DNA of 64,000 bases from Bacillota bacterium (GTDB lineage: Bacteria > Bacillota > Clostridia > Saccharofermentanales > DTU023): positions 1 to 64,000 of the forward strand of contig JAKPXB010000021.1 of NCBI GenBank assembly GCA_029570375.1. Reading direction: 5' to 3'. Made by a program: the position numbers and the translations under genes. The first letter of the stretch is position 1, and each line of letters starts with the position of its first letter. The notes under the pieces are model-generated. The model was not told the origin of the DNA and did no database searches. It worked only from the letters and a program-made list of their open reading frames with translations. Of this stretch, positions 2 through 14,767 are shown in pieces.

Positions 2-787
2 AACGATAATCCCAACGTCAATGAAGACGGCAGCGTCAAGCACAAAAATGTTATCTCTGTTATCTTCAATATAAATGAATCGTCGTATCTCGCGGGCTAT
101 CTTTATTGTCTTGTTAACGAAAACCACGACAAGCTCTTTGATTCCTCTTACAAGTTCGTTCCGACAGACGAAGCACGGGCAGCCGGTTTCGTCGGCGGCA
201 CAAATTCAAATGGTATTCTCGTCTGTTCTTACGCTTTTATTCAGGGAATCAATGACGCAGCAACTGAGTTAAATGTTTCCTATGATTATTACGCAAAGAG
301 TGATGCCGGCTTTACAGATTCTGCTCTCGGCAGTACGGTTGCCGGTACCTTCTTTGACAACAAAGCGAACGTCGTCTTTGCTGTCGCCGGTACAGTTGGT
401 GACGGCATTACATCAAAAGCAAAAGAAGTTGGCCGTCTTGCTATTCAGGTTGATGCCAATCTGGATGACCAGCAACCGGGTTTCGTTCTTACCTCTGTCT
501 TGAAACTGACGGATGCTCCCGGTGAATCCATCATGAAAGCTTATCTCGATGGCAAAATCAGTGAATTAGATAACCTTCAGACTTTCGGGATTAAGACTGG
601 CGCGACTGATATAACGGATTTGTCTGTGATCGGGAAATTTATTCAGGATGCTGATTTGTGGAAGGAAATCATAGATAAGACAAACGCTAAAAAACAAGAG
701 ATTATTAATGGCACATTGAAAGTAATCGATGCTCAGGCGGGAGAGACATTCGATGCTGCGGCCTATCCTCATGTTAACGTTAAATGA
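2..787 (+). CDS. BMP/PnrA-family nucleoside-binding lipoprotein, C-terminal part
   Basis: The frame is open from the left edge to the TGA at 785-787, giving about 261 residues with no start codon in the window, so the N-terminus and any lipobox lie outside. The content fits the C-terminal two thirds of a basic-membrane-protein (BMP/PnrA) solute-binding protein: a 'GFVGG' segment followed by a 'GINDA' helix, a 'VFAVAG' strand, then 'AIQVDANLDDQ' and 'VLTSVLK', the usual order of the second lobe. In this family the protein sits outside the membrane and hands nucleosides to an ABC permease. The ATPase and two permeases follow directly. The substrate is inferred from the family and neighbours only. 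Confidence 0.85.
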   Translation, partial: NDNPNVNEDGSVKHKNVISVIFNINESSYLAGYLYCLVNENHDKLFDSSYKFVPTDEARAAGFVGGTNSNGILVCSYAFIQGINDAATELNVSYDYYAKSDAGFTDSALGSTVAGTFFDNKANVVFAVAGTVGDGITSKAKEVGRLAIQVDANLDDQQPGFVLTSVLKLTDAPGESIMKAYLDGKISELDNLQTFGIKTGATDITDLSVIGKFIQDADLWKEIIDKTNAKKQEIINGTLKVIDAQAGETFDAAAYPHVNVK

Positions 788-800
788 TTGAATCAGGACA

Positions 801-827
801 GCGGTGCCTTCGGGCACCGCGTCTTTT
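801..827 (+). terminator. GC-rich hairpin after the binding-protein gene
   Basis: A perfect 8-bp stem (gcggtgcc / ggcaccgc) closes a TTCG tetraloop and is followed by gtctttt. It lies between the binding protein and its ATPase. It probably works as a partial terminator or 3'-end stabiliser, so that more binding protein is made than membrane components; this role is inference. Confidence 0.6.
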
Positions 828-842
828 CCTCCGGGTGTTGAT

Positions 843-2393
843 ATGGAGACAATTCTAAGTACGAAAGCGTTAACGAAAAAATTCGGCGGTTTCACAGCCA
901 ACGATCAGATATTTCTAACAGTTCATGAAGGTCAGATCAAGGCGATTGTGGGCGAAAACGGCGCGGGCAAGACGACGCTGATGAATATGCTTTACGGTGA
1001 ACTTCAGCCAACATCAGGTGAAATTTTTCTGAGGGGTGAAAAAGTTGAATTCAGTTCTCCGCGCGATGCGATCACTAAAGGCATTGGAATGGTACATCAG
1101 CATTTTATGCTGGTACCGAGCATGACGGTCTATGAGAACATTGTGCTCGGCGCAGAAATTCCCGGAGAGCACTTGAAGTTTTTGATTGACCGGAAAGAAG
1201 AAAAGCGTCGCTGCCAGTCTTTAACAGAAAAGTACGGTTACGATCTGGATCTCAATGAGAAGATTTCCGAACTGTCAATAGGAGAACAACAAAAAGTTGA
1301 AATATTAAAAATGTTGTACCGCGATGTCGATATTTTGATTCTTGATGAACCGACATCGGTGTTGACACCACAGGAAGTAGATGAGTTCTTAAAGCAGTTA
1401 GTTGATTTAAAGGCAAAAGGCAAGACAATTATACTAATTAGCCATAAGCTCCGCGAGATCATGGGTGTCAGTGATGAGATTACAGTTATCAAACGCGGCA
1501 AGACGATCGGTAACGTAAAAACGGAGGAGACCAGTGAGCCCGCATTAGCTCAGATGATGGTTGGACGGAAAGTATTGCTGACTGTCCAAAACCAATATAA
1601 GCCAACGGATAACAAGCGTGTCATGTTGCAGGTGAAGAACCTGCAGACAAATGATCGCCTTGGGAAGTTAGCTGTGGACCATGTCAGTTTTACGATTCAT
1701 AGCGGTGAAGTCTTTGGTATAGTCGGCGTTGATGGCAATGGACAGACGGAGCTGGTTAAAATACTCTCCGGTATGATGGAGGCGACAGGCGGCACCGTTG
1801 AATACAATGGACAGGAAATAACAAATTGTCTGTCTGATCAGCTGCGTAAGAGCGGCATAGGCATTATTCCTGAGGACCGCTATGGTGAAGGGCTTTGTCA
1901 GGAAATGTCGCTTTGTCAGAATGCGATCGCCGGAGCCGTCACATCCAAACCCTTCAGCCGACACGCAGTATTTAATCGAAAACAGATTAATGAGTACTGT
2001 CAGCATTTGATTGACGCCTACCAGATTCACATTGCAGATTTTAATGGCAATGTTTCACAGCTGTCCGGAGGTAATGCTCAAAAACTTATTGTGGCACGAG
2101 AAATGGAAGGCGAACCCAGGCTCCTTATCGCTTGTCAACCGACGCGGGGAGTAGACATCGGAGCGATTGAGTTTATCCATCGGCAGATTATCGATTTTCG
2201 TGATAGAGGTGGAGCTGTTTTGCTAGTGTCATCAGAATTGAATGAAATCCTGAGTTTGTCAGACAGAATTGGCGTTATGTACAAGGGGAAGATTATCGGC
2301 GAGGTAGATCCGCGTACGACAACTGAGACAGAGATTGGCCTTCTGATGGCGGGGATGGTTCCGGATTTGGAGAACGGAATCAGGTCAATCTAA
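843..2393 (+). CDS. Nucleoside-type ABC transporter ATP-binding protein (two ATPase domains)
   Basis: A protein of 516 residues with two fused ABC ATPase domains, as in the NupO/RbsA group that energises nucleoside or sugar import. Domain 1 has Walker A GENGAGKT (37-44), signature LSIGEQQ (144-150) and Walker B ILILDEP (164-170). Domain 2 has a degenerate Walker A (GVDGNGQTE), an intact LSGGN signature and an atypical Walker B (ACQPTRGVD), the asymmetry normal for this family. I chose ATG 843 because the protein then begins a few residues before the first ATPase strand; the GTG at 804 lies inside the upstream hairpin. No strong Shine-Dalgarno site precedes it, so it may depend on transcription and translation from upstream. 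Two permease genes follow. Confidence 0.9.
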   Translation: METILSTKALTKKFGGFTANDQIFLTVHEGQIKAIVGENGAGKTTLMNMLYGELQPTSGEIFLRGEKVEFSSPRDAITKGIGMVHQHFMLVPSMTVYENIVLGAEIPGEHLKFLIDRKEEKRRCQSLTEKYGYDLDLNEKISELSIGEQQKVEILKMLYRDVDILILDEPTSVLTPQEVDEFLKQLVDLKAKGKTIILISHKLREIMGVSDEITVIKRGKTIGNVKTEETSEPALAQMMVGRKVLLTVQNQYKPTDNKRVMLQVKNLQTNDRLGKLAVDHVSFTIHSGEVFGIVGVDGNGQTELVKILSGMMEATGGTVEYNGQEITNCLSDQLRKSGIGIIPEDRYGEGLCQEMSLCQNAIAGAVTSKPFSRHAVFNRKQINEYCQHLIDAYQIHIADFNGNVSQLSGGNAQKLIVAREMEGEPRLLIACQPTRGVDIGAIEFIHRQIIDFRDRGGAVLLVSSELNEILSLSDRIGVMYKGKIIGEVDPRTTTETEIGLLMAGMVPDLENGIRSI

Positions 2394-2460: not shown

Positions 2461-3540
2461 ATGAAAAGAATAAAATGGAAAAATCTCGCTAATTCAGTTT
2501 TACCCGTGTTCTTCGCGCTCCTCATTGGTGCCGTTATTATGCTTGCTATGGGGCATAATCCTCTGAATGCTTACCGGATAATGTTTGAACGTCCCCTGTT
2601 TACTCTTCGCGGATTGACTAATACGCTGCATATTGCCGGGCCGCTCCTGCTCGCAGGTTTAGCCATTGCTGTTACATTCCGATCTAATTTGTACAATATG
2701 GGGGTGGAAGGACAGCTGATCTTTGGCGGGTTTCTGGCCGGTCTGGCAGGCGCTTATCTTCATATTCCGAATCCATTCTTACATAAATTCGTATGTCTTG
2801 TTGTTGGAATAATCGCGGGCATGATGTTTGTTCTCATTCCAGCCATTCTTCGCGCTTTTCTTCGTGTCGATGAGATGGTCGTTACGCTGACGCTGAACTA
2901 TGTAATGATGACGGTTCTTGAGTATTTGTCCTCCGGTCCTTTTCGCAATCAGGGAGCTGGATACGTCTCGACTAATACCATTGATAAAACGGCTATGTTT
3001 AACAGAATAGGGAAAACACGGCTGACTCCGTTTTTTATCATCGCTTTCCTTGTTTTTCTGCTGTTCTTTTTTATGCATAAAAGAATGGTCTTCGGCTATC
3101 GCGGAGAGGCTGTGGGGAAAAATCCGGAATTTGCGGAAGCTACCGGTCTTAGAGTCCGTCGGCATATTGTGCAGGTCATGATCATCAGCGGAGCATTGGC
3201 AGGGCTGGCCGGTGCCGGTCATATGATGAGCCATGAGTTCAATTACACACTCTCATTCTCCGGTACCCCCGGTATTGGCTGGGATGGTATGCTGATTTCG
3301 TTGCTAGGCGGACATTCGCCAGCAGGTGTTCTGATTGCCGCTGTTTTCTACAGTGCGCTTAAAACGGGATCTGATAACATCAACATGTATACAGGCATAC
3401 CCAAAGAGATTGTCGCCATAATCCAAGGTTTAATCGTCCTTTTTCTTTCCATCAGGTTTATCAATGACCGCTTCGGTTTAACTAAAAGGTGGAGAAACAA
3501 GCGGAATATGAAAGGAACTGTTCATGGCACTTTTGAATAG
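2461..3540 (+). CDS. Nucleoside ABC transporter permease 1 (NupP-like)
   Basis: A 359-residue integral membrane protein with about ten hydrophobic segments. It carries the branched-chain/BMP permease motifs 'NLYNMGVEGQ' near residue 80 and 'GEAVGKNPEFAEATGLRV' near residue 215, the cytoplasmic coupling loop that contacts the ATPase. It starts at ATG 2461 after a modest 'aagga' site. Its 3' end overlaps the next permease by 17 bases, which indicates coupled translation and a heterodimeric channel. Substrate assignment to nucleosides rests on the BMP-type binding protein and the downstream phosphorylase and kinase. Confidence 0.9.
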   Translation: MKRIKWKNLANSVLPVFFALLIGAVIMLAMGHNPLNAYRIMFERPLFTLRGLTNTLHIAGPLLLAGLAIAVTFRSNLYNMGVEGQLIFGGFLAGLAGAYLHIPNPFLHKFVCLVVGIIAGMMFVLIPAILRAFLRVDEMVVTLTLNYVMMTVLEYLSSGPFRNQGAGYVSTNTIDKTAMFNRIGKTRLTPFFIIAFLVFLLFFFMHKRMVFGYRGEAVGKNPEFAEATGLRVRRHIVQVMIISGALAGLAGAGHMMSHEFNYTLSFSGTPGIGWDGMLISLLGGHSPAGVLIAAVFYSALKTGSDNINMYTGIPKEIVAIIQGLIVLFLSIRFINDRFGLTKRWRNKRNMKGTVHGTFE

Positions 3541-4432
3541 GATACTTTACGATGCCATTTACCACACAACACCGATACTCTTATGTGTCATCGGCGGCTT
3601 GTTTGCCTACAAGGCAGGTGTTCTTAATATTGCTTTAGAAGGAATGATGCTGGCCGGTTCATTTGTGGCGGTGCTGGTTGCCGTAAATTCGCAAAGTGTT
3701 TGGCTCGCTTACTTGAGCGCTATCGCCGTCAGTCTCATATTAGGGTTAGTTTTCTCCTACATGTCTGTGAATCGAAAAGGTAATGTTATTATTATCGGAC
3801 TCGCGATTAATATGATTGTTCCCGCTGTGGCGGGATTTGTTCTTCAGTCGATGGGTGTGCCAAACTTAACGGCGAAATGGATCAATCCGGTCATATTCCG
3901 AGTCCATCTTCCCGTTGTTGAAAGAATTCCTGTTCTTGGCAGTTTGTTGAGCGGGCATCCGATAGGGACATATATCAGCTTTTTAGTGATCTTTCTGGCA
4001 TATGTCTTACTTTACAAAACGAAATTTGGCATCTATACCCGTGTAGTAGGTGAAAGTCCTGAGACCGCAAAGAGCCTTGGGATTAAAAGCAACTACTACG
4101 CGACGCTTGCCATTCTTATCGGCTCCCTGTTATGTGCCGTTGCCGGAGTCAACCTCGCCTATGAACGTCTGGGAATATTCACAAATAACATGACTGCCGG
4201 TCGGGGTTTTATCGCAATTGCTGCCATTTACTGCGGGAAAGGGGAACCTTTAAAAAGTTCACTGTATGCTTTCATTTTTGGTCTCGCAAGAGCTCTGGCT
4301 GTCAACTTAAGTATTTATGCCGGCAATGTCGCTGCCCTGTTTGATATTATTCCCTATTTCGTTATGATCGCGATACTTGCGGTCAATGCGGGATACTCCA
4401 ACCGTAACTTGCGTATGCGAACGTATTGGTAG
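3524..4432 (+). CDS. Nucleoside ABC transporter permease 2 (NupQ-like)
   Basis: A 302-residue membrane protein with roughly eight hydrophobic segments, the shorter partner of the preceding permease. Family motifs are visible: 'AGVLNIALEGMMLAG' near residue 30 and the coupling loop 'VVGESPETAKSLGI' near residue 180. It starts at ATG 3524 inside the end of permease 1. With the binding protein and ATPase it completes a BMP-type importer. About 125 bases separate it from the catabolic genes. That gap contains an AT-rich stretch with a -10-like gataat but no convincing -35, so an internal promoter is possible but unproven. Confidence 0.9.
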   Translation: MALLNRILYDAIYHTTPILLCVIGGLFAYKAGVLNIALEGMMLAGSFVAVLVAVNSQSVWLAYLSAIAVSLILGLVFSYMSVNRKGNVIIIGLAINMIVPAVAGFVLQSMGVPNLTAKWINPVIFRVHLPVVERIPVLGSLLSGHPIGTYISFLVIFLAYVLLYKTKFGIYTRVVGESPETAKSLGIKSNYYATLAILIGSLLCAVAGVNLAYERLGIFTNNMTAGRGFIAIAAIYCGKGEPLKSSLYAFIFGLARALAVNLSIYAGNVAALFDIIPYFVMIAILAVNAGYSNRNLRMRTYW

Positions 4433-4558: not shown

Positions 4559-5230
4559 ATGAGTAAAAACGCCTTGCTCGTCGTGGATATGGTGAAAGAT
4601 TTTACAGATCCTGAAGGCCTAACATTTTATCCGCAAAACAGGGTAATACTACCTTTTATCAAAAGGGTCATCGACTATTTCCATGCGACAGGACAGCTCG
4701 TGGTCTTCCTCCGCCACTCTTACCGGGCAGGGAAATTTGATCGCAACCTTGAGACAATGCGCCCAACATGTATAGAAGGAACAGATGGCGATGAAATTGA
4801 TCCGATGCTGCCGGTTTTTGATCAGGATTATCAGGTTTTCAAGCGGCGATACAGTGGTTTCTATGGAACGGATCTTGATTTAATTCTTCGGGAAAATGCG
4901 GTAGATCGTGTCATAATTGTAGGGACAAAAACAAATTGCTGCATCCGTGCGACGGCGACAGATTCCTATAATCTTAATTATGAAACCGTCGTACTTGCAG
5001 ACTGTGTCGCGACAGATTCAGCCGAAGTCAACAATGTTCATCTGAAAGATATTGACAAGTATATCGGCATTGTTATGGATTCTGAAGCTTTTATACGCGA
5101 GGATTCAGCGGCATCTAACCATGTCGATTCGGGAAGAATTGGCCAGACGGGCTCAGGGGAGAGCTTGCGAGACAATTCACTTCCGGCTAATCCTGATGAT
5201 TCTGCGCCTGCTACACTCACAGTATGCTGA
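4559..5230 (+). CDS. Isochorismatase-family cysteine hydrolase (nicotinamidase-like)
   Basis: A 223-residue protein of the isochorismatase/nicotinamidase fold. The catalytic triad is visible as Asp10 (VVDMVKDF), Lys95 (VFKRRYSGF) and Cys128 (TNCCIRAT), with the cis-peptide region GTKT just before the cysteine. Members hydrolyse amides such as nicotinamide, ureidoacrylate or biuret. ATG 4559 follows a strong aaggagg at 4545-4551. The last ~45 residues are a polar extension rich in Ser, Asp and Pro that is not part of the core fold. It lies between a nucleoside importer and a kinase/phosphorylase pair, so it probably processes the base or an amide released from an imported nucleoside. The exact substrate is not readable. 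Confidence 0.85.
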   Translation: MSKNALLVVDMVKDFTDPEGLTFYPQNRVILPFIKRVIDYFHATGQLVVFLRHSYRAGKFDRNLETMRPTCIEGTDGDEIDPMLPVFDQDYQVFKRRYSGFYGTDLDLILRENAVDRVIIVGTKTNCCIRATATDSYNLNYETVVLADCVATDSAEVNNVHLKDIDKYIGIVMDSEAFIREDSAASNHVDSGRIGQTGSGESLRDNSLPANPDDSAPATLTVC

Positions 5231-5246
5231 ACAAGGAGAACATTCT

Positions 5247-6185
5247 GTGACAAAAAAAATCGATTTTATCATAAGCGGTTACAATAGCTTTGATCACATG
5301 ATCACCCTAAAATCGGACATTCTGGTGGGTAAGACTTCACTGGTGAAAAACGCAACCTGTTTGAAAGCACATTGGGGAGGATGTTCTGTAAACGTCGCTG
5401 TCGCTTTGCAGCGTCTCGGTCTTAAAGCTGCGCCGATTCTTCGCGTAGGAGATGATTTTGAAACATCCGGATTTCGTGAATTCTTACTGACAGAAGGAAT
5501 CAGTTTGGAAACGATTTCTTCCGTCGAATCTGACATTTGTTCCTTATCTTTTATGATTCAACAGCCGGATGGTGAACATGTTACGTTATTTTACCCTGGC
5601 GCCATGGATGAGAAATACGCCATAAAACCCCCCTTATCCTGGTTCAGAGAAAGCAAAGCAGCTTTGATGACAGTCGCGTCGCACCAAGACAACGTATTTT
5701 TCCTGGAGAGAGTGAAACAGGCAGGTATTCCATTATATTTTGGTATGAAGGGTGATGCGGATGCATTCCCATCCGAATTTCTGGAAGATGTTTTTCGACA
5801 TAGCCGTATCATCTTCATGAATGAAGCGGAATCAAAACAAATATGTCATGCGTTCAATCTTGATCATATCAGGTTTCTTTCCGGCAAAGGGGAAACGGAA
5901 GTGGTGGTCATCACGAAAGGTAAGAATGGCGCGGTATATTTCACAGCGGATGGACGGTCCGAATCTGTCCCTGCATATAAAGTTCGTGAAATTGTAAGCA
6001 CAACGGGAAGCGGTGATGCATTCATAGCAGGTTTTTTGTATGCCTTATCACAAAACATGCCGTACAGACTATGCTGCCGCTGTGGGGCGGCGGTCGCTTC
6101 TTTTGTTCTTGAAGCTGAAGCCTGCACATCTAATTTACCTGCTAGGAGCAAGCTTTATACGCGGTTTAATTATCATAACGAATAG
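5247..6185 (+). CDS. PfkB-family (ribokinase-like) sugar or nucleoside kinase
   Basis: A 312-residue PfkB-fold kinase. The N-terminal motif GGCSVNVA (44-51) and the C-terminal signature TTGSGDAF (252-259) with catalytic base Asp257 are intact. GTG 5247 is chosen because it follows aaggagaa (5233-5240) at good spacing and gives a protein beginning directly at the first beta strand; the same frame extends upstream over the end of the hydrolase gene without a ribosome site. Members phosphorylate ribose, nucleosides, fructose or related sugars. Between a nucleoside importer and a nucleoside phosphorylase, a ribose or modified-nucleoside kinase is the natural reading, but the specificity is inferred. 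Confidence 0.88.
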   Translation: MTKKIDFIISGYNSFDHMITLKSDILVGKTSLVKNATCLKAHWGGCSVNVAVALQRLGLKAAPILRVGDDFETSGFREFLLTEGISLETISSVESDICSLSFMIQQPDGEHVTLFYPGAMDEKYAIKPPLSWFRESKAALMTVASHQDNVFFLERVKQAGIPLYFGMKGDADAFPSEFLEDVFRHSRIIFMNEAESKQICHAFNLDHIRFLSGKGETEVVVITKGKNGAVYFTADGRSESVPAYKVREIVSTTGSGDAFIAGFLYALSQNMPYRLCCRCGAAVASFVLEAEACTSNLPARSKLYTRFNYHNE

Positions 6186-6242
6186 ATTATCCCAGAAGCG
6201 CGATACCCCGCAATTGGGATTCCAGAAGTGAGGAGGTTTGTC

Positions 6243-7004
6243 TTGTCAACGCTATATATGAAAGGTGAGCCGGAAGCGATCAGCAAGTATGTTATTTTTT
6301 CTGGTGATCCATGGCGTGTGACCATCTTCGAGTCAATTTTTGACAGTTACCGGAAGGTGGCATTCGCAAGGGAATTCAACACAATTACCGGCATTTACAA
6401 AGGTGTACGTGTAACGGCGACCTCGACTGGAATAGGAGCTCCATCGGCCGCTATCGCTATGGAAGAAATGTTTGAGTGTGGGATGGAAGTCGCGATCCGA
6501 ATGGGAACTGTCATGGCTCTCGATAGCCGTATGGTCGGCAAGTTTTTGATCCCTTTAGGTTCTGTACGTCGTGAATCGACAAGCGATCATTATGCTGAGA
6601 AAGGCTACCCGGCTATTGCCGACTTTGATCTCGTGCAGATTCTCAATGAGGCGGTGAGGGCACAAGGTTACAAACCGGTTAACGGTATTCACAGTACGCT
6701 TGACGGGTACTATATGGACATGAAACAGTCACGCTATTCCAAATCACGCGGAATCAGCCCTGAAAAAACGATGCAGGAGTTGGCAGAAATCAATATTCTC
6801 GGTGTCGATATGGAATCAAGCGCCATGCTTGTGATCGGAAGATTGATGGGGGTCCGCACAGCTGTCATCACTTTGGCAACAGTTTCCAAAAATCTTGAAA
6901 CTGCTTTGTTAGAAAAAGAACGAACCGAGATGGAACGCGCGCTGTGCATTATTACACTTGAAGCGATTGCTGCGTTCGATCGGAGAGTGAGAGGTGAACA
7001 GTAA
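6243..7004 (+). CDS. Nucleoside phosphorylase (uridine phosphorylase-like)
   Basis: A 253-residue protein of the PNP/UDP phosphorylase family that splits nucleosides with phosphate into base and pentose 1-phosphate. Visible motifs are the phosphate-binding GDPWRV (21-26), 'STGIGAPSAAIAMEE' near residue 60, 'RMGTV' near residue 87 and the ribose-binding DMESSA near residue 180. The start is TTG 6243, which follows a full aggaggt at 6231-6237; the upstream in-frame GTG 6228 would sit on top of that site. It belongs with the importer and kinase. The base specificity cannot be decided from the sequence, and the uridine-phosphorylase label is only the closest family. Confidence 0.87.
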   Translation: MSTLYMKGEPEAISKYVIFSGDPWRVTIFESIFDSYRKVAFAREFNTITGIYKGVRVTATSTGIGAPSAAIAMEEMFECGMEVAIRMGTVMALDSRMVGKFLIPLGSVRRESTSDHYAEKGYPAIADFDLVQILNEAVRAQGYKPVNGIHSTLDGYYMDMKQSRYSKSRGISPEKTMQELAEINILGVDMESSAMLVIGRLMGVRTAVITLATVSKNLETALLEKERTEMERALCIITLEAIAAFDRRVRGEQ

Positions 7005-7166
7005 AACAACCTTCCATGACACTGCGAAATATGGCATGAGAGTGACACCGGATATACAATCCTCCGTCTTGCTTTTGTGGCGGCGATTTCGACAATGATC
7101 GCGAAGAATCTGACGATAGGGAGATAGCTGAATGGCATTCAGTATAAAGAAAATCGAGGTTACAAA

Positions 7167-7901
7167 ATGAAACTAATCGCTTATTTATCAAATGGATATC
7201 CTTCTTTGGATGACTCTCTGCAGCGTGGCATTGATTATGTCGGTGCAGGTGTCGATATCATTGAGGCTGACATTCCGTCACATGATCCTTATCTGGACAG
7301 TGATTACCTGAAAAAAAGGATTCTGTCGGCTCTTGACAGAGAACCGGATTATGAAAAATACATGGCGTCGCTGCTTGAGCTGAAAAAAGCTGTTCCGGAT
7401 GCTGGCTTTATGGTGAATATTTATGTCGAAACATTAGCCGGGATCGGTGTTGATAGGTTTTCCGCTTTTATGAATGATCTTGGTGAAAAAGAAGTGCTGT
7501 TAGTGGGGCCTGAATTCAAAGGTTTGCGCTCGGAACTGGAAACCCTGGGGTTTTACGCGAGCAGTTTTGTAACGCGTGAAATGTGCGAAGAGGATTTAGA
7601 GCTGGCGTCAAGGTCAAACGGATTCATCTATTTGGAAGGCTTTAATGATAATAAAAAATACAACCAGGAATATCCTGAGTTGAAGGATTGCGTGGCAAAG
7701 GTGCGCGAAATCATTGGTTATAAGCGCAATATCTATGTTGGCATCGGGGTGCATACGCCGGAACGTTTGGCTGAAGTTCGCGAATCCGGTGCGGATGGAG
7801 CATTTCTAGGAAGCATGGTTCTCAAAAAAGAGAATGACAAGGAAGAACAGTTGAAATTCCTGCGGCATCTGCGGCTGATAGCGGATGGAGCCCTTCACTG
7901 A
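7167..7901 (+). CDS. Orphan TrpA-like (beta/alpha)8-barrel lyase
   Basis: A 244-residue TIM barrel resembling the tryptophan synthase alpha subunit. Residues matching the two TrpA catalytic acids are present with the right spacing of 11: Glu33 (IIEADIP) and Asp44 (PYLDSD). The phosphate-site segment near the C-terminus reads 'GVHTPERL' followed by 'GADGAFLGSMV', as in TrpA. There is no trpB or other trp gene anywhere in the window. The gene is the last of a nucleoside uptake and catabolism cluster, about 160 bases after the phosphorylase, with a gaggtt site before ATG 7167. A retro-aldol cleavage of a phosphorylated sugar or nucleoside-derived compound is a reasonable hypothesis; true tryptophan synthesis is unlikely in this context. 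Confidence 0.7.
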   Translation: MKLIAYLSNGYPSLDDSLQRGIDYVGAGVDIIEADIPSHDPYLDSDYLKKRILSALDREPDYEKYMASLLELKKAVPDAGFMVNIYVETLAGIGVDRFSAFMNDLGEKEVLLVGPEFKGLRSELETLGFYASSFVTREMCEEDLELASRSNGFIYLEGFNDNKKYNQEYPELKDCVAKVREIIGYKRNIYVGIGVHTPERLAEVRESGADGAFLGSMVLKKENDKEEQLKFLRHLRLIADGALH

Positions 7902-7917
7902 AACATGATTTTCCGAT

Positions 7918-7978
7918 CTTCCCTTTGCAAGTAAAAGAGCCGATTTTTTTTTAACAAGCTTCAAGAAGAAAAGGGAAG
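7918..7978. terminator. Inverted repeat between convergent operons
   Basis: The 9-base arms cttcccttt (7918-7926) and aaagggaag (7970-7978) flank an interior containing a run of nine T followed by aacaag. It lies between the end of the nucleoside operon (+) and the end of the corrinoid operon (-). It may act as a weak bidirectional terminator. The long loop lowers confidence. Confidence 0.35.
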
Positions 7979-8064
7979 TTACGGTGTCGATCCCGACAAA
8001 GTCAAACGGTCGTTGAAAATAGTCAATACGTTAAAGGTTCAGTTATGTGGGGAAGTTTCTAATA

Positions 8065-8697
8065 TTAGTCTTCTTCCCGGGTGATTCCGTATAGAAGTGC
8101 GTTTATGATCGCGGCTGCCACCGTGCTGCCGCCTTTGCGCCCGCGGGCGACGATGGTGGGGACGCCGCTCTGCATAATCATTTCTTTAGCCTGCACGACA
8201 TTGACAAAGCCGACAGGCACACCGACGACAAGAGCGGGCGACAGCCTTTTTTCGCGGATCAGCTCGCAGATCCGTATCAGCGCCGTAGGTGCGTTGCCAA
8301 TCGCGAAGATCAGTGTACCGGCGAGGTCCGCCGCCTTATCGATGGAGGCTGAAGCGCGCGTGGTTTTTTGTTCCCGCGCCGCAACGGCGACATCCGGGTC
8401 GGCCATGAAACAGACCGCCCGACACCCCAGGGAAGCGAGTGCCTGACGGTTAATCCCGGCGCGCGCCATGTTGGTGTCGGTGACGATGGTCGCCCCTTCG
8501 CCGAGCGCTTTAAGCGCAAGCGGAACAGCATTTTCGGAGAAGAAGAGCGAGTCGGCAAACTCAAAATCCGCCGTCGTGTGGATCACGCGTTTGATGATCG
8601 GTGCGAGAGCGGGATCAAGCGGGTGGGGGAGCTCGCTTTCAATGATTTCAAAACTGCGCCGTTCGATGTCTTCGGGCAATACATTCTCCAGATTCAT
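8065..8697 (-). CDS. cbiC: Cobalt-precorrin-8 methylmutase
   Basis: A 210-residue CbiC/CobH protein that moves the C11 methyl group to C12 of the corrin ring to give cobyrinate. The family's catalytic histidine is visible as His40 in the segment IHTTADF, and the later 'GVPVGFVNV' and 'ARGRKGGSTVAAA' segments are typical of the fold. It is the last gene of the operon, 56 bases after cbiP. It makes cobyrinic acid, the substrate of CbiA encoded in the same operon. Length and motifs are normal. Confidence 0.95.
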   Translation of the reverse strand: MNLENVLPEDIERRSFEIIESELPHPLDPALAPIIKRVIHTTADFEFADSLFFSENAVPLALKALGEGATIVTDTNMARAGINRQALASLGCRAVCFMADPDVAVAAREQKTTRASASIDKAADLAGTLIFAIGNAPTALIRICELIREKRLSPALVVGVPVGFVNVVQAKEMIMQSGVPTIVARGRKGGSTVAAAIINALLYGITREED

Positions 8698-8753
8698 GGT
8701 TCTCCTCCATCAGACGCGGGATCCTGCCCGCGCATATCACGGCCGGTCAAAGG

Positions 8754-10244
8754 TTACAGCCCGGTGTCGAGAATAGCGTAGATCTTTTCCATATCGAGGT
8801 TATCGCGGACACCGCGGGCGAGCCGCTCGTACTGCTCCTGCTTGTACGCGTCTCGATCCTGCGGCGCTTCCCCGGGAAGGATGCCCTTCATAATGCACAG
8901 CGCTTTGACGAGGGCTTCCCTGCATGAGGCTGTATTGAAGAAGCCGTGAACGCCGCACCCGTACACATGGCTCTGCCAGCATCCTTCCGTGCTGCCGTCC
9001 TCCAGAAGAAGGAGCGGCCGGGCATGGTCTTCGGGAATCACGAGTTCCTTTTTGATCTGGTATCCTTCAATCGCCGCACCGGCGAGCGGGGCCCATACAC
9101 CGCCGACAGGCTGCACTTCGGCGGTGAAACGCGAGCGGTATTCCTCCTCCGCGGACACCGTCCTGACAGGGAGGAGTTCCATTCCTTTGATTTCACGGAT
9201 CGTACCCCGGCCGTCTTTCCCTGTAAGGACGGAACCGAGCATGTGATACCCGCCGCCGATACCGAAAACAACAGAACCGTCGGTCGCCGCCCTTTTGACA
9301 GCCGCTTCCAGACCGCCTGTGCGAAGCCATTGCAGGTCATCGACGGCGCTTTCCGTCCCCGGAAGGACAATGAGGTCGGGATGACCGAGCTCCTCGACGC
9401 GGTCGACATAGCGCAGACAGATATCCGGTGTCGCTTCGAGGGGGGCAAAATCGGTGAAATTGGAGATGCGCGGCATCCGGATTACGGCGATATCCAGCCG
9501 CCCGCCCGCCTCTTTCCGGCGGAGACGGTCGGACAGGCTGTCTTCGTCTTCGATATCGACGGAGAGAAAGGGGATAACACCGGCGAATGGCTTTCCCGAC
9601 AGTTTTTCAAATGAGTCGAGACCCGGACGCAGAAGGTTTATATCGCCGCGGAACTTATTGATGATGAGAGCACGCACCATCGCGCGCTCTGCCGGGTCGA
9701 GAAGCGCCAGCGTGCCGTACAGCTGGGCAAACACGCCGCCGCGGTCGATATCGCCGACGAGGAGCACAGGTGCTCCGGCGCGCTTAGCCATGCCCATATT
9801 CACCAGATCATCCTTCTTCAGGTTGATTTCCGCGGGGCTGCCCGCGCCTTCCAGCACAATAATATCGTTCGCCGCGGCGAGAGATTCGTAGGCGTGCATA
9901 ATGTCGGGGATCAGCGTATTCTTCATCGCGAAATACGCCGCCGCCTGCATGTGGCCGCGCACGTGTCCGTTCACAATGACCTGTGAACCTTCATCGGTGA
10001 CCGGTTTCAAAAGGATAGGATTCATGCGCACATCGGGTTCGATGCCACAGGCTTCCGCCTGGACAGCCTGGGCGCGGCTCATCTCCAACCCTTCGCGCGT
10101 GATGTGAGAATTGAGTGCCATGTTCTGGCTTTTGAAAGGAGCGACGCGATACCCGTCCTGCCGGAATACCCGGCATAGACCGGCGACAAGCAGGCTTTTC
10201 CCCGCTCCGGACATCGTTCCCTGAACCATGATTGCTTTAGCCAT
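8754..10244 (-). CDS. cbiP: Cobyric acid synthase with Cys-less amidotransferase domain
   Basis: A 496-residue CbiP/CobQ. The N-terminal P-loop ATPase domain begins MVQGTMSGAGKS, and a C-terminal class-I glutamine amidotransferase domain follows. It amidates four carboxylates of adenosyl-cobyrinate diamide. The start at 10244 follows ggaggt and overlaps the cobD end by 8 bases; the longer upstream frame lacks a ribosome site. The glutaminase nucleophile is absent: where the family reads GICGGYQML this protein reads GIGGGYHML, with Gly330 (codon ggc at 9257-9255). The downstream 'GVHGFF' histidine remains. Known family chemistry needs that cysteine to release ammonia from glutamine, so this enzyme probably uses free ammonia. 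Confidence 0.93.
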   Translation of the reverse strand: MAKAIMVQGTMSGAGKSLLVAGLCRVFRQDGYRVAPFKSQNMALNSHITREGLEMSRAQAVQAEACGIEPDVRMNPILLKPVTDEGSQVIVNGHVRGHMQAAAYFAMKNTLIPDIMHAYESLAAANDIIVLEGAGSPAEINLKKDDLVNMGMAKRAGAPVLLVGDIDRGGVFAQLYGTLALLDPAERAMVRALIINKFRGDINLLRPGLDSFEKLSGKPFAGVIPFLSVDIEDEDSLSDRLRRKEAGGRLDIAVIRMPRISNFTDFAPLEATPDICLRYVDRVEELGHPDLIVLPGTESAVDDLQWLRTGGLEAAVKRAATDGSVVFGIGGGYHMLGSVLTGKDGRGTIREIKGMELLPVRTVSAEEEYRSRFTAEVQPVGGVWAPLAGAAIEGYQIKKELVIPEDHARPLLLLEDGSTEGCWQSHVYGCGVHGFFNTASCREALVKALCIMKGILPGEAPQDRDAYKQEQYERLARGVRDNLDMEKIYAILDTGL

Positions 10245-11271
10245 GCAGTACCTCCGACAGGGCGCGGAGGAGTTTATTATTCTCTTCGCGCGTTCTGAGA
10301 CCGATGCGCATGAAGTTCTCGCCAAGACCTGTGAAATTGTCGCATCGTCTGACATATATCTTCTTCTTCATCAGCGCTGAGACGAGCGGGAGTGTGCTGC
10401 GGACGAGGAGAAAATTCGCGTCGCTCGGGTATACGAAAAGCCCGAGACTCGTGAGATTTTCCGTCATGTATTCCCGCTCGGCGCGCGCCGCGCTCCGTGC
10501 CGCCTCGGTCCAACCGCTCGTCCTGAGCGCGCTGAGTCCCGCCGTCTGTGCGACAGACGAAACGCTCCATTCGGGGATAAAGCGCGCGATGCGGGAGAGG
10601 ATGGCGCTCTGTCCGATCATAAAGCCCAGGCGGAGCCCCGCCATCCCGTATATCTTCGTGAACGCGTTTAGAATCAGCAGATGGGGGTGATTCGCCACGG
10701 CCGGGATCATCGATTGGCCGTCCGTAAAATCAATGAAACACTCGTCGATCACGAGATAAACACCGGCGGCTTCGCAGGCGTCTGCCACGGCGAGGCACAA
10801 GGAGGGGGAGGCCAGTCTTCCCGTCGGGTTGTTCGGGTTGCAGAGGAAGACGATATCGAGCTCGGGCGAAATCGCTTCGAGAATCGCTTCTGTCAACGCG
10901 AAGCCCGTCTCTTCGCAGAGAAGATGCTCGCGCGTTTCAGCTCCGAACAGCGCCGCAGCCCGTTCGTATTCGGAGAAAGTCGGCGCGAGTGTCAGCGTCT
11001 TTTTCGGGCGGATGCAGGAGCAGAGACTGTAGATCAATTCTGTCGCGCCGTTGCCGCAGAGGACCATATCCTCGCCGACATCATATCGTTCGGCCAGTGC
11101 CGCACGAAGGTTCCTGTACTTCGCGTCAGGGTAATGGGCAAACGAGTCGAGATCTCTGATAATCGCCTGTTTAGCATTCTCAGGCATCCCGAGCGGGTTG
11201 ACATTGATGGATAAGTCAAGTTCAATTTCCAGCTGGCTTCCCTGGTAGCCGCCGTGTTCATAGCGCTGCAT
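10237..11271 (-). CDS. cobD: Threonine-phosphate decarboxylase (aminopropanol phosphate for cobalamin)
   Basis: A 344-residue fold-type-I PLP enzyme related to histidinol-phosphate aminotransferase. The PLP lysine lies in the segment FTKIYGMAGLRLG, and 'CNPNNPTG' marks the substrate region. Its place between cbiB and cbiP, with 14- and 8-base overlaps, supports the CobD role: decarboxylating L-threonine phosphate to the aminopropanol phosphate that CbiB attaches. By sequence alone a HisC function could not be excluded; the operon context decides it. Confidence 0.9.
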   Translation of the reverse strand: MQRYEHGGYQGSQLEIELDLSINVNPLGMPENAKQAIIRDLDSFAHYPDAKYRNLRAALAERYDVGEDMVLCGNGATELIYSLCSCIRPKKTLTLAPTFSEYERAAALFGAETREHLLCEETGFALTEAILEAISPELDIVFLCNPNNPTGRLASPSLCLAVADACEAAGVYLVIDECFIDFTDGQSMIPAVANHPHLLILNAFTKIYGMAGLRLGFMIGQSAILSRIARFIPEWSVSSVAQTAGLSALRTSGWTEAARSAARAEREYMTENLTSLGLFVYPSDANFLLVRSTLPLVSALMKKKIYVRRCDNFTGLGENFMRIGLRTREENNKLLRALSEVLHG

Positions 11272-12217
11272 AGAGGCACCCCCTTAAGATCAGTGTCAGC
11301 GCCATCATGAGCGCTGAAGCGGCGTTCAGTAAATGGTGCGCCGCGAGAATATCCTGCGCGGAGACAGGCCGCGTATCGTCTCCGATAGTGGGCTTCTCGT
11401 GAAGAACTCCCTGGTAGACGGCGTTCCCCGCGAGCCTGACGCGCAGAGCCCCGGCCATGACCGATTCCGTTTGGGCGGCATTGGGACTCGCGTGCTTGCG
11501 CCTGTCGCGTTTCCAGATGCGGAAGGCGTTTTTCGCGTCAAGGCGGCAGAGGCGCGCTGCCGGGATCATCAGAAGGGCGCACAGCCTGGACGGGAGGTAA
11601 TTCAAAACGTCGTCCAGCCGCGCGGCGGCTGTGCCAAACGCTCCATACCGTTCGTTTCTGTAGCCGATCATGGAATCCATCGTGTTCGTCGTCTTATAGA
11701 GGCACCCGAGCGCCGCCCCTCCGAAAGCCATGTAAAACAGCGGCGCCATCACGCCATCCGAGGCGTTTTCGGCGACTGTTTCAACAGCGGCGCGTATGAC
11801 GCCCGCTTCATCGAGGTCCGCTGTGTCGCGGCCGACGATCATGGATAAGGCGCGGCGCGCTTTTGGGAGATCGCCCTGTTCAAGTGCGTCAAAGACAGCA
11901 CGGCTTTCCACCCGGAGGCTTTTTAAGGCGAGGAGCTGCCAGCAGAGGAGCGACTCAAGGATGAAGTAAGCCACCCACGACCATTTCCACGCCAGATAAA
12001 GAAGCCCGGCGGGGATGGCTGTGTCGGCGAGAATCGCCACGAGAACGAGAAGAGCTCCTCCAAGCCTCTTATTCTTCAAGGGATAGAGTATGCGTTCCAG
12101 GCGCGAAATCAGGGCGCCAAAGACGCGTACAATATGCGGCCATCCTTTTGGATCGCCGATGATCGTATCGAGAATGAAGCCGGTGCAGAGGGCGGCAGTC
12201 GATATGAGAATGATCAC
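11258..12217 (-). CDS. cbiB: Adenosylcobinamide-phosphate synthase
   Basis: A 319-residue membrane protein with several hydrophobic segments. The N-terminal family signature 'LDTIIGDP' is present near residue 20, and the conserved interior has 'ENASDGVMAPLFYMAFGG' near residue 150. CbiB couples aminopropanol phosphate to adenosylcobyric acid at the membrane. It overlaps cobD, which makes its co-substrate, and lies about 35 bases after cbiA. Nothing unusual was seen. Confidence 0.95.
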   Translation of the reverse strand: MIILISTAALCTGFILDTIIGDPKGWPHIVRVFGALISRLERILYPLKNKRLGGALLVLVAILADTAIPAGLLYLAWKWSWVAYFILESLLCWQLLALKSLRVESRAVFDALEQGDLPKARRALSMIVGRDTADLDEAGVIRAAVETVAENASDGVMAPLFYMAFGGAALGCLYKTTNTMDSMIGYRNERYGAFGTAAARLDDVLNYLPSRLCALLMIPAARLCRLDAKNAFRIWKRDRRKHASPNAAQTESVMAGALRVRLAGNAVYQGVLHEKPTIGDDTRPVSAQDILAAHHLLNAASALMMALTLILRGCLYAAL

Positions 12218-12252
12218 AGTTAATCTCCTAACCTGTTTTCCTGAAAGAGGGT

Positions 12253-13587
12253 TTATCGATGCAACTGTTGATATTGTACCGCCTTTTTAATAAAACGACG
12301 CGCCGGCTCTTCGTCTGACGGGAAGTAAAAGTGTGGGAATCCCGCGTAGAGCGACTCGGCCGCGTGACAGCTGCGAAATACCTGTCCGTTCGAAGCCTTC
12401 CTAAGAGAAAAATCTTCGCCGCCGTTCCCGCTCTGACAGTAGTGGAACTCCTGTGCGCGCAGAATGCCGCCTCTTTCGCAGAGGAGATTGTCTTTTTCCG
12501 CCGTGAGCGTCATATAGCCGAAGCGCTGCAGCCGATCGGATTTCCACGCATCTCCCGCGATGGCTCCCGCCATGGGGAACCCTTCCAGCGATTCGTGGAG
12601 ATAGAGGAAACCGCCGCCTTCGGCGATAGTCGGCAGCCCGTCCGCGATCGCCGCGGATATGGCCGCGCGCATGGCGCTGTTTGCGGACAGGGCTTGTGCG
12701 TATAGCTCGGGGTATCCGCCGGGCAGGTAGAGTCCGCCGATGTTCTCCGGCAGCGACTGGTCATCCAGCGGGCTGAAAAAACAGAGTTGGCCGCCAAGCG
12801 ATTCGAGGATGTTCAGGTTTTCCTCGTAGAGAAAGAAGAACGCCCGATCGCGCGCGACGGCGATGCGCACGTCCGCCATCGGGTGGGCTTGCTTTTCCAT
12901 TCTCCGGATTTCAGGCGCGGAAGAGGCGATCCTCAGGACACCGTCGATATCGATATGCGCGTTGGCCAGTTCTTCCAGTGCGCACAGGGTGGTCCGCAGG
13001 TCAGTCAATTCATCGGAAGTCATAAGACCCAGGTGGCGGCTGGGGATGGTGAGCCGCGCGTCGCGCGGGAGAAAGCCGAGCGGTTCAACACCCGCTTCAC
13101 GCGCCACCTGATCCAGTCCTTTCGCCGAAGAAGGATGCGCGCCGTTGAAAATGACGCCGCGTATGCGGTTTTCCGGGCGGAACGCAAGGAACCCGCGGAT
13201 AATCGCGCCGGCCGATGTGTACAACCCGCTCGCGTCAATGACCAGAATGACGGGGGTTTCAGTCGCGCGCGCGACATCATAGGCGCTGGCCTGGCCATCC
13301 GCGCCGATGCCGTCATAAAAACCCATGGCGCCTTCGATGACAGAGAGTTCCCGCGCTTTTTCCGCCAATAAGCCGCGGAGCACCTGCCTGTTACAGAAGA
13401 ACGGGTCGAGGTTGTATCCGGGTATGCCGAGTATCTCCCGGTGGAACAGGGGGTCGATGTAGTCAGGACCGCATTTGAAAGAGGACAGCGGTAATCCTCT
13501 CGCTCTGAACACGGAGAGCAGGGCGGAAACGACCGTCGTTTTTCCACAGCCTGAACGCGTGCCTGTGATGAGGATTCTCTTATGCAT
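12253..13587 (-). CDS. cbiA: Cobyrinate a,c-diamide synthase with Cys-less amidotransferase domain
   Basis: A 444-residue CbiA/CobB. It has an N-terminal P-loop ATPase (ITGTRSGCGKTT), a central 'VIEGAMGFYDG' and a C-terminal amidotransferase domain. It amidates carboxylates a and c of cobyrinate. The normal nucleophile motif AECGG reads AEGGG here: Gly324 (codon ggc, 12618-12616) replaces cysteine, as in CbiP of the same operon. The late histidine region 'AGFPHFYF' is kept. The ATP and substrate parts look intact, so an ammonia-driven enzyme is more likely than a dead one. The start overlaps the end of cbiET by 8 bases. Confidence 0.94.
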   Translation of the reverse strand: MHKRILITGTRSGCGKTTVVSALLSVFRARGLPLSSFKCGPDYIDPLFHREILGIPGYNLDPFFCNRQVLRGLLAEKARELSVIEGAMGFYDGIGADGQASAYDVARATETPVILVIDASGLYTSAGAIIRGFLAFRPENRIRGVIFNGAHPSSAKGLDQVAREAGVEPLGFLPRDARLTIPSRHLGLMTSDELTDLRTTLCALEELANAHIDIDGVLRIASSAPEIRRMEKQAHPMADVRIAVARDRAFFFLYEENLNILESLGGQLCFFSPLDDQSLPENIGGLYLPGGYPELYAQALSANSAMRAAISAAIADGLPTIAEGGGFLYLHESLEGFPMAGAIAGDAWKSDRLQRFGYMTLTAEKDNLLCERGGILRAQEFHYCQSGNGGEDFSLRKASNGQVFRSCHAAESLYAGFPHFYFPSDEEPARRFIKKAVQYQQLHR

Positions 13588-14767
13588 GCCCGCCTCCGCT
13601 GATAATATAGATTGGGTTCAGCGCCGTCATGAGGTGGCTGTTCCCTGCAGGTCTCGCCCTCGATGCACTGATCTGAACGACATCCGCGTCCACACCCTGA
13701 GCCTTGAAAGCTTCCAGCGCTTCGTGCAGCGTTTCCAGTGTGATCGCGTTGAGGACGATGCGGACGCCCGCGTTGTTCCTGAAGAGAGCGGCGATGATTT
13801 CCCGGATCCTGCCGCCGCTTCCACCGATAAAAGCCACTGAGAGAGCGGGGAGCGAAGCGAGTGCGTCCGGTGCGCTTTCCGGGATCACAGTTACGTTTCC
13901 GATGTGGAAGGCGGCGGTGTTTTCGCGCACAAGGCGGACAGCGTTCTCGTTCGGCTCAATCGCGTACACACGCCCCCGGTACGCGGCGAGGGCCATCTCG
14001 ACGGTGACGGATCCCGTGCCTGCGCCGATATCGCCGCAGATGTCGTCCGGCGCGACAGCGAGCAGACTCATGCTGACGGATCGGATTTCCGCTTTGGTCA
14101 TCGGCACATCGCCCCGGATGAATTCCTCATCCGGGATGCCCGTCCGTACGCGCGGATCGGAGTAGGGGTTCTCGACGAGCAGGACACACAGCCCTTCCTT
14201 ACCGGCTTCCGCGAGTGAGGAAGCTGTGTATTCGTCCAGACGTTCATCGTCCGACCCGAGATTCGCGCCGACTGTGACGGACAGATGTCCGTATCCCGCC
14301 GTCACCAGCTGTGCGGCCATTTCGCGGACATTGGAGCCTGTCAGGGCGAAGGTCAGTTTGTGGCGTCGGACGGTATCGACGAAATTGGCCTCCCGTCCAT
14401 GGCAGCTCACGAGCGCCGCGTCCTGCCAGGATTTTTTCATTCTGGCGAAAAAATAACTGAGAGACGATATGCCCGGAATAAAGGCAACAGAAAATTCGGA
14501 CAGGGCGGCGCCCAGCTTCTCGGCCGCGCTGTAAAAGCCTGTGTCGCCGGACACCAGCACCACAAACCGTTCGGCAGGTGTCGATTCGACAGCCATTCTG
14601 ACGCCATCCGGCGTGTATTCCGCGCATGTCGGCTTATCCCCGGACGAAAATGACTGTAACAGCCGGCAGGCACCCAGAAGCATATCGGCCTGCCGGATCG
14701 CTTCCCAACCCTGGCGGCTGACCGTAGCCGGTCCCATCCCGGCGCCAACAATCGTAATGCTTTTCAT
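13580..14767 (-). CDS. cbiET: Fused cobalt-precorrin-7 C5-methyltransferase / C15-methyltransferase-decarboxylase
   Basis: A 395-residue fusion equivalent to CobL. Residues ~1-200 are a CbiE-type tetrapyrrole methylase starting with 'ITIVGAGMGP'. Residues ~210-395 are CbiT, with the SAM-binding motif DIGAGTGSVTVE. Together they methylate C5 and C15 and decarboxylate the acetate side chain at C12. The fusion replaces separate cbiE and cbiT genes. It overlaps cbiJ by 4 bases and cbiA by 8 bases. Confidence 0.95.
   Translation of the reverse strand: MKSITIVGAGMGPATVSRQGWEAIRQADMLLGACRLLQSFSSGDKPTCAEYTPDGVRMAVESTPAERFVVLVSGDTGFYSAAEKLGAALSEFSVAFIPGISSLSYFFARMKKSWQDAALVSCHGREANFVDTVRRHKLTFALTGSNVREMAAQLVTAGYGHLSVTVGANLGSDDERLDEYTASSLAEAGKEGLCVLLVENPYSDPRVRTGIPDEEFIRGDVPMTKAEIRSVSMSLLAVAPDDICGDIGAGTGSVTVEMALAAYRGRVYAIEPNENAVRLVRENTAAFHIGNVTVIPESAPDALASLPALSVAFIGGSGGRIREIIAALFRNNAGVRIVLNAITLETLHEALEAFKAQGVDADVVQISASRARPAGNSHLMTALNPIYIISGGGHA

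Follow-up and report, generated by a model that had tools for sequence, protein, structure and literature searches.

In the haloarchaeal non-carboxylating pentose bisphosphate pathway, the ribose of guanosine is converted to dihydroxyacetone phosphate (DHAP) and ethylene glycol by a phosphorylase, a PfkB-type kinase, an isomerase, a phosphatase, a FucA aldolase and a glycolaldehyde reductase, and the PfkB and urdpase genes share operons (PMC9700705). In the DHAP shunt, 5'-deoxynucleosides yield DHAP and an aldehyde through a phosphorylase, or a nucleosidase and a kinase, followed by an isomerase and a FucA-type aldolase (PMC6079011, PMC10986504). Here, we describe an operon at the beginning of a 64,000-nucleotide stretch of DNA (the window; positions 1 to 64,000 of contig JAKPXB010000021.1, assembly GCA_029570375.1) from a Bacillota bacterium of the Saccharofermentanales, in which a BMP-type ABC importer is followed by a hydrolase, a PfkB-family kinase, a nucleoside phosphorylase (NP) and a homologue of the tryptophan synthase alpha chain, TrpA. 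Tentatively, and with a confidence a little short of even, we read this locus as an abridged version of a conserved operon that takes up and breaks down a nucleoside by way of retro-aldol cleavage by the TrpA-like protein. The operon may work in the manner of the two published pathways while being a member of neither.

The likeness to the haloarchaeal pathway lies in the Urdpase-family phosphorylase, the PfkB-family kinase and the terminal aldehyde reductase, as well as in the putative products, a triose phosphate and a C2 alcohol derived from the ribose of a nucleoside. With the DHAP shunt and the disposal of 5-deoxyribose, the operon shares the logic of a phosphorylase or kinase, an isomerase, an aldolase and an alcohol dehydrogenase. 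However, where the haloarchaeal pathway has a ribose-1,5-bisphosphate (R15P) isomerase, a HAD phosphatase and a FucA class II aldolase, the operon has BtpA, the TrpA-like protein, the hydrolase and the importer, and the shunt, with its MtnA-type isomerase and FucA-type aldolase, includes no gene of the BtpA, TrpA-like, PfkB or isochorismatase families. The conserved genes of the operon encode no R15P isomerase, ribulose-1,5-bisphosphate phosphatase or MtnA-type isomerase and no class II aldolase, FucA-type included; NP is followed only by BtpA, an iron-containing alcohol dehydrogenase (Fe-ADH) and the TrpA-like gene. Therefore, the operon is assigned to neither pathway. Canonical BMP-ABC nucleoside operons (NP, DeoC, DeoB) have the same type of importer and phosphorylase, but their lower half consists of DeoC/DeoB or an amidohydrolase instead of PfkB-BtpA-ADH-TrpA-like. 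In the open-access literature we found no publication on catabolic roles of BtpA/SgcQ, on TrpA-like proteins or on this set of genes; the first-pass annotation could name no pathway to which the substrate corresponds.

Gene families in the window were called by Pfam, and curated NCBIfam/TIGR models were applied with their own cut-offs:

2-787, plus strand: BMP-family substrate-binding protein, 3' part of a gene truncated by the contig start; the frame is open from base 2 to the stop and the product resembles the BMP proteins of the operon.
804-2393, plus strand: double-domain ABC transporter ATPase of the BMP/nucleoside type (Pfam ABC_tran, 3.6e-54; top NCBIfam model NF047930, below cut-off).
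2461-3540, plus strand: ABC permease 1 (BPD_transp_2, 5e-37).
3524-4432, plus strand: ABC permease 2 (BPD_transp_2, 7.5e-31).
4559-5230, plus strand: isochorismatase-family cysteine hydrolase (ICH; Pfam isochorismatase, 2.6e-36; catalytic triad; nearest PDB sequence 3hb7).
5247-6185, plus strand: PfkB-family kinase, GTG start (Pfam PfkB, 4.3e-40; aspartate of GxGD).
6243-7004, plus strand: NP-I family nucleoside phosphorylase, TTG start (Pfam PNP_UDP_1, 1.6e-28; TIGR01718, 1.1e-44, below cut-off).
7167-7901, plus strand: TrpA-family enzyme (TrpA-like), not a tryptophan synthase (Trp_syntA PF00290, 4.6e-17; AlphaFold2 (AF2) model; conserved acids).
7902-8064, plus strand: intergenic stretch at the position of BtpA in relatives, with a weak and non-significant likeness to the BtpA C-terminus.

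Pfam thus confirms the families that had been named at 4559-7901, from the hydrolase that follows the BMP importer to the TrpA homologue. Judged by reading, the likely starts are GTG at 5247 for the kinase and, downstream of an AGGAGG, TTG at 6243 for the phosphorylase. Neither BtpA nor Fe-ADH is present in the window copy, and the contig extends well past the operon.

When 85,000 species genomes were scanned and all open reading frames of the loci found were compared with the reference proteins of the operon, the TrpA-like gene was seen in 41 loci, in Bacillota, Chloroflexota and Mycoplasmatota. The full set of 11 genes is present in 29 of them in near-fixed order (GntR-BMP-ATPase-permease-permease-hydrolase-PfkB-NP-BtpA-Fe-ADH-TrpA-like). 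Ten more are mostly truncated by contig ends. L057, a Sporolactobacillus operon, has no BtpA. In L086 (Lachnospiraceae bacterium A2; 7284-8019), permease 2, the hydrolase and the kinase are missing and the phosphorylase is truncated, as if by a single internal deletion or an assembly fault. The neighbourhood of the TrpA-like gene, with kinase, phosphorylase and hydrolase, is nearly unchanged across the 41 loci, the recurrence that the first-pass annotation had proposed to look for, and a chance neighbourhood was rejected on that ground. Within the order of the window genome, a single other sampled genome (G090) carries a close TrpA-like relative (71% identity), and the other matches are at 19-31%; 28 of these were fetched as loci, and trpB adjoins in all 28. 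The sample of the class added six genomes (38-41% identity), and that of the phylum contained the TrpA-like gene in the window genome only. Two Chloroflexota loci (L047, L048) have the NP-TrpA-like order of the window with BtpA next, and their TrpA-like proteins, 53-54% identical to that of the window, group with it. No plasmid-borne TrpA-like copy was found, all plasmid matches being canonical trpA.

The TrpA-like proteins form a lineage separate from canonical TrpA: identity is 30-99% within it and 18-26% to canonical TrpAs of the same order, and a long branch divides the two. In a midpoint-rooted FastTree phylogeny, from which L022 (wrong reading frame) and L029 were excluded, all 16 canonical rows fall into a single clade (support 1.0), and support for the TrpA-like side as a clade is low (0.29). 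None of the 41 TrpA-like loci has trpB within 10 kb, as opposed to 28/28 of the canonical trpA loci checked. Six clostridial carriers hold both kinds of TrpA together with indole-glycerol-phosphate synthase (IGPS); their canonical proteins score about 300 bits and their TrpA-like proteins about 100. The window protein reaches 54.8 bits, below the TIGR00262 trpA equivalog cut-off of 102.35. IGPS is absent from genomes G000 and G090. An orphan trpA of a tryptophan operon was rejected as an explanation, given the absence of trpB near all 41 genes and of IGPS and any trpB above cut-off from the window genome. The absence of trpB that the first-pass annotation had pointed out is thus a property of the whole clade. 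Since this clade is not trpB-linked and its neighbourhood recurs in 41 loci, the earlier idea of a dedicated nucleoside route with a TrpA-family lyase is well supported as a hypothesis. The four enzymes then arranged in a line are probably not the whole pathway, because BtpA and Fe-ADH, found in nearly all other copies, are missing here. That the nucleoside is a modified one and that the hydrolase attacks an amide, both supposed earlier, are still conjecture.

In the AF2 model (mean predicted local distance difference test score 93), the protein adopts the TrpA barrel (Z 26.9, root-mean-square deviation 2.1 over 229 residues). The two acids picked out earlier, Glu33 and Asp44, align with E49 and D60 of E. 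coli TrpA. E33 is invariant in 45/45 aligned TrpA-like members, and position 44 is acidic in all 45 (D in 8, E in 37; canonical TrpAs of the same order have E there). The phosphate-site glycines G192, G194 and G215 (E. coli numbering) are invariant and S216 nearly so, and Tyr102 and Tyr175 are retained as Y86 and Y155. Fold, paired acids and phosphate-binding motifs are thus common to TrpA (PF00290; TIGR00262) and the TrpA-like proteins. The latter differ not only in score and in the lack of a trpB partner but also in position 51, a glycine in TrpA and Asp (D35) in 45/45 members, and in the missing N-terminal stretch, the protein beginning at TrpA residue 17. The conserved residues and the predicted fold therefore indicate that the two acids needed for a retro-aldol step are in place, within an altered pocket.

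These residues also bear on a different reading, in which the base side is the target of the TrpA-like enzyme. Phosphorylation would come first, and the enzyme would then break the C-C bond that joins a heteroaromatic ring to a ring-opened sugar phosphate, in the way that TrpA splits indole-glycerol phosphate. The operon would be meant for ribosides that are C-linked or unusual in some other way, with the base left for ICH to finish. Both catalytic acids are kept, as are the two invariant tyrosines, Asp60 of TrpA binds the indole NH, and the kinase and ICH are conserved together with the TrpA-like gene. However, every complete copy also has a phosphorylase with an intact phosphate site, which points to an N-nucleoside, and the kinase matches the pseudouridine kinase model weakly. 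We consider this reading unlikely.

The hydrolase had been called amidohydrolase-like. A hydrolase it is, but one better placed in the isochorismatase superfamily, with a D10-K95-C128 triad invariant in 20 aligned members; the closest curated models, RutB and biuret hydrolase, score far below cut-off. The window ICH carries approximately 36 additional C-terminal residues not seen in its relatives. In the PfkB-family kinase the GxGD aspartate is invariant, and among solved structures the sugar kinase MJ0406 and the putative ribokinase 3b1n/3b1r are closest in sequence. Ribokinase, nucleoside-kinase, IolC and ribose-1-phosphate-kinase models all match it below cut-off. Every score for kinase and NP being sub-threshold, the curated models do not decide the substrate of either. 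All 19 kinases match NF053626 (ribose-1-phosphate kinase), a match that raises the question of a haloarchaea-like route. NP would then give ribose 1-phosphate, PfkB would phosphorylate it, BtpA (or SIS) would produce ribulose 1,5-bisphosphate and the TrpA-like enzyme would cleave that. Such a route would be in keeping with the haloarchaeal operons that join PfkB and urdpase genes (PMC9700705), yet the NF053626 scores are all far below cut-off and two other models outscore it for the window kinase, DeoB is at hand for ordinary ribose 1-phosphate in 7/8 carriers tested, and the operon has no phosphatase or known R15P isomerase. We therefore regard this route as distinctly improbable.

The phosphate site of NP is intact, with R25, R43 and R86 invariant and T89 nearly so in 20 aligned members. 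In operon members and in a rhizobial variant described below, an almost invariant Tyr replaces His8 of uridine phosphorylase, the residue that we take to hold the ribose 5'-OH; the ordinary relative L093 has His. At what we presume to be the positions of Gln166 and Arg168, uridine-specificity residues of E. coli Udp, no conservation was seen by eye in alignment A3, which does not include E. coli Udp. Fe-ADH is closest to the alcohol-dehydrogenase domain of AdhE and to lactaldehyde reductase, so short aldehydes are its likely substrates. BtpA is a true PF03437 member, and its nearest solved sequences, though weak matches, are HisF and TrpA.

The Tyr at the His8 position and the resemblance of Fe-ADH to acetaldehyde/ethanol enzymes would also suit an analogue of the DHAP shunt that handles nucleosides modified at the 5' position, 5'-deoxyadenosine or methylthioadenosine for example. 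NP would release a 5-modified ribose 1-phosphate, BtpA would isomerise it, the TrpA-like enzyme would yield DHAP and (methylthio)acetaldehyde, and Fe-ADH would reduce the latter. The steps follow the published order, in which a phosphorylase can stand for nucleosidase and kinase (PMC6079011, PMC10986504). However, this scheme has no use for the PfkB kinase or ICH, and the phosphorylase is closest to uridine phosphorylase rather than to an adenine-specific enzyme; we judge it quite unlikely.

Variants of the operon bear on the role of the genes 3' of NP. On plasmids of rhizobia (Agrobacterium vitis, L090; Rhizobium lusitanum, L092), the genes after GntR-BMP-ABC-ICH-PfkB-NP encode a SIS sugar isomerase and an aldehyde dehydrogenase, and BtpA, ADH and TrpA-like are all missing; the joint exchange makes these three look like one module. 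In other Bacillota, the BMP-ABC-NP operons that hold NP relatives also contain DeoC, DeoB or an amidohydrolase (partly by eye). We therefore propose sugar disposal for the module after NP, the replacement of genes suggesting that it handles isomerisation, carbon-carbon cleavage and aldehyde redox. In an Acetoanaerobium BMP-ABC-NP operon (L093:5652-7720), a flavoprotein that by eye resembles a disulfide oxidoreductase takes the place of hydrolase and kinase.

With the gene content, order, conservation, intact catalytic residues and trpB independence as observed, the reactions and their order might be the following. Judging from its family, the BMP-ABC importer would take a nucleoside in, NP would split it into base and sugar 1-phosphate, and the PfkB kinase, its site intact, would phosphorylate the sugar or the nucleoside. 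The bond opened by ICH, whose triad is intact, would be of the amide or ureido kind and would probably lie in the base or a side chain. Where the operon is complete, isomerisation of the phosphorylated pentose would fall to BtpA, a TIM barrel that binds phosphate, and the TrpA-like enzyme, using the two TrpA catalytic acids, would cleave the product into a triose phosphate and a short aldehyde. Fe-ADH would reduce this aldehyde to the alcohol, which in hosts that ferment would restore NAD+. In keeping with this scheme, an isomerase and an aldehyde-redox enzyme again stand 3' of NP in the rhizobial variant, the retro-aldolase DeoC comes next in some Bacillota BMP-ABC-NP operons, and two published pathways perform the same chemistry with other folds (PMC9700705; PMC6079011 and PMC10986504).

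Several points weigh against our scheme. No new route is required for ordinary ribose or deoxyribose: DeoB and DeoC are each present in 7/8 carriers tested, so that an ordinary nucleoside is unlikely. The substrate must then be out of the ordinary, and nothing obliges such a sugar to pass through the steps proposed. Of the candidate substrates weighed (nicotinamide riboside, pseudouridine, queuosine, vitamin B6 and oxidised-purine nucleosides), none accounts for all genes. The TrpA reaction expels indole and is not a ketose aldol cleavage, and we know of no activity for any member of the operon. Sugar catabolism leaves the role of ICH unexplained, and in a simple DHAP shunt kinase and phosphorylase would be redundant. 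Finally, the window lacks both BtpA and ADH, and since the Sporolactobacillus operon also lacks BtpA, this protein may be dispensable or substituted.

The window genome is a 1.73 Mb draft of 51 contigs, approximately 96% complete. Profile searches of it found deoC but no second trpA, no trpB above cut-off, no IGPS and no deoB. BtpA was not found anywhere in this draft, nor was an ADH of the operon type, the best match being at 38-41% identity. No ADH remnant was seen in the window, and the BtpA-like tail 3' of the TrpA-like gene is not significant, 12-16% of shuffles equalling its score. Given these absences, the pathway in this genome is either decaying or finished by other enzymes. Simple decay, with BtpA and ADH lost and the pathway non-functional, is a serious possibility, if a little short of an even chance, and is compatible with any reading of the family. 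The missing BtpA and ADH, the weak tail and the extended C-terminus of the hydrolase all fit it. On the other hand, the other genes are full-length with their catalytic residues retained, the Sporolactobacillus operon also does without BtpA, and an assembly of this completeness may be short of a gene.

More broadly, we would put only just below an even chance the view that the operon encodes a bacterial pathway not described before, dedicated to a specialised nucleoside, with two uncharacterised TIM barrels of the TrpA and BtpA/SgcQ families in place of the isomerase and aldolase known from elsewhere. To our knowledge, the textbook enzyme TrpA has one known reaction in bacteria, and for BtpA/SgcQ proteins we found no established activity in the open-access literature; if the view holds, the operon would provide a bacterial TrpA function outside indole chemistry and a first catalytic role for BtpA. 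The fixed operon ties both proteins to the import of nucleosides and to a kinase, a phosphorylase and an aldehyde reductase, narrowing their function to a few reactions. In fermenters of the gut, rumen and digesters it would add a nucleoside route into fermentation. Caution also seems advisable with standalone proteins annotated as tryptophan synthase alpha, which may be unrelated to tryptophan.

Some neighbouring features deserve mention. In the window, a minus-strand run of cobalamin biosynthesis genes adjoins the operon (8065-14767); CbiC, the first gene, is Pfam-confirmed, and the others were assigned by eye. A 152-amino-acid VOC gene, glyoxalase-like by eye, lies directly 3' of the operon in two loci (L059:10753-11211 and L062:10809-11267), and genes of roughly similar size occupy this position in the related gut loci L058, L065, L067, L069 and L075. 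Another conserved BtpA cluster is carried by rhizobial plasmids (L094, L095, L097) and comprises a ribose-type ABC importer, a phosphotriesterase, a glutamine amidotransferase, a PfkB kinase, BtpA, in some cases TenA, and a Zn-dependent hydrolase; it may represent a second, so far undescribed riboside pathway.

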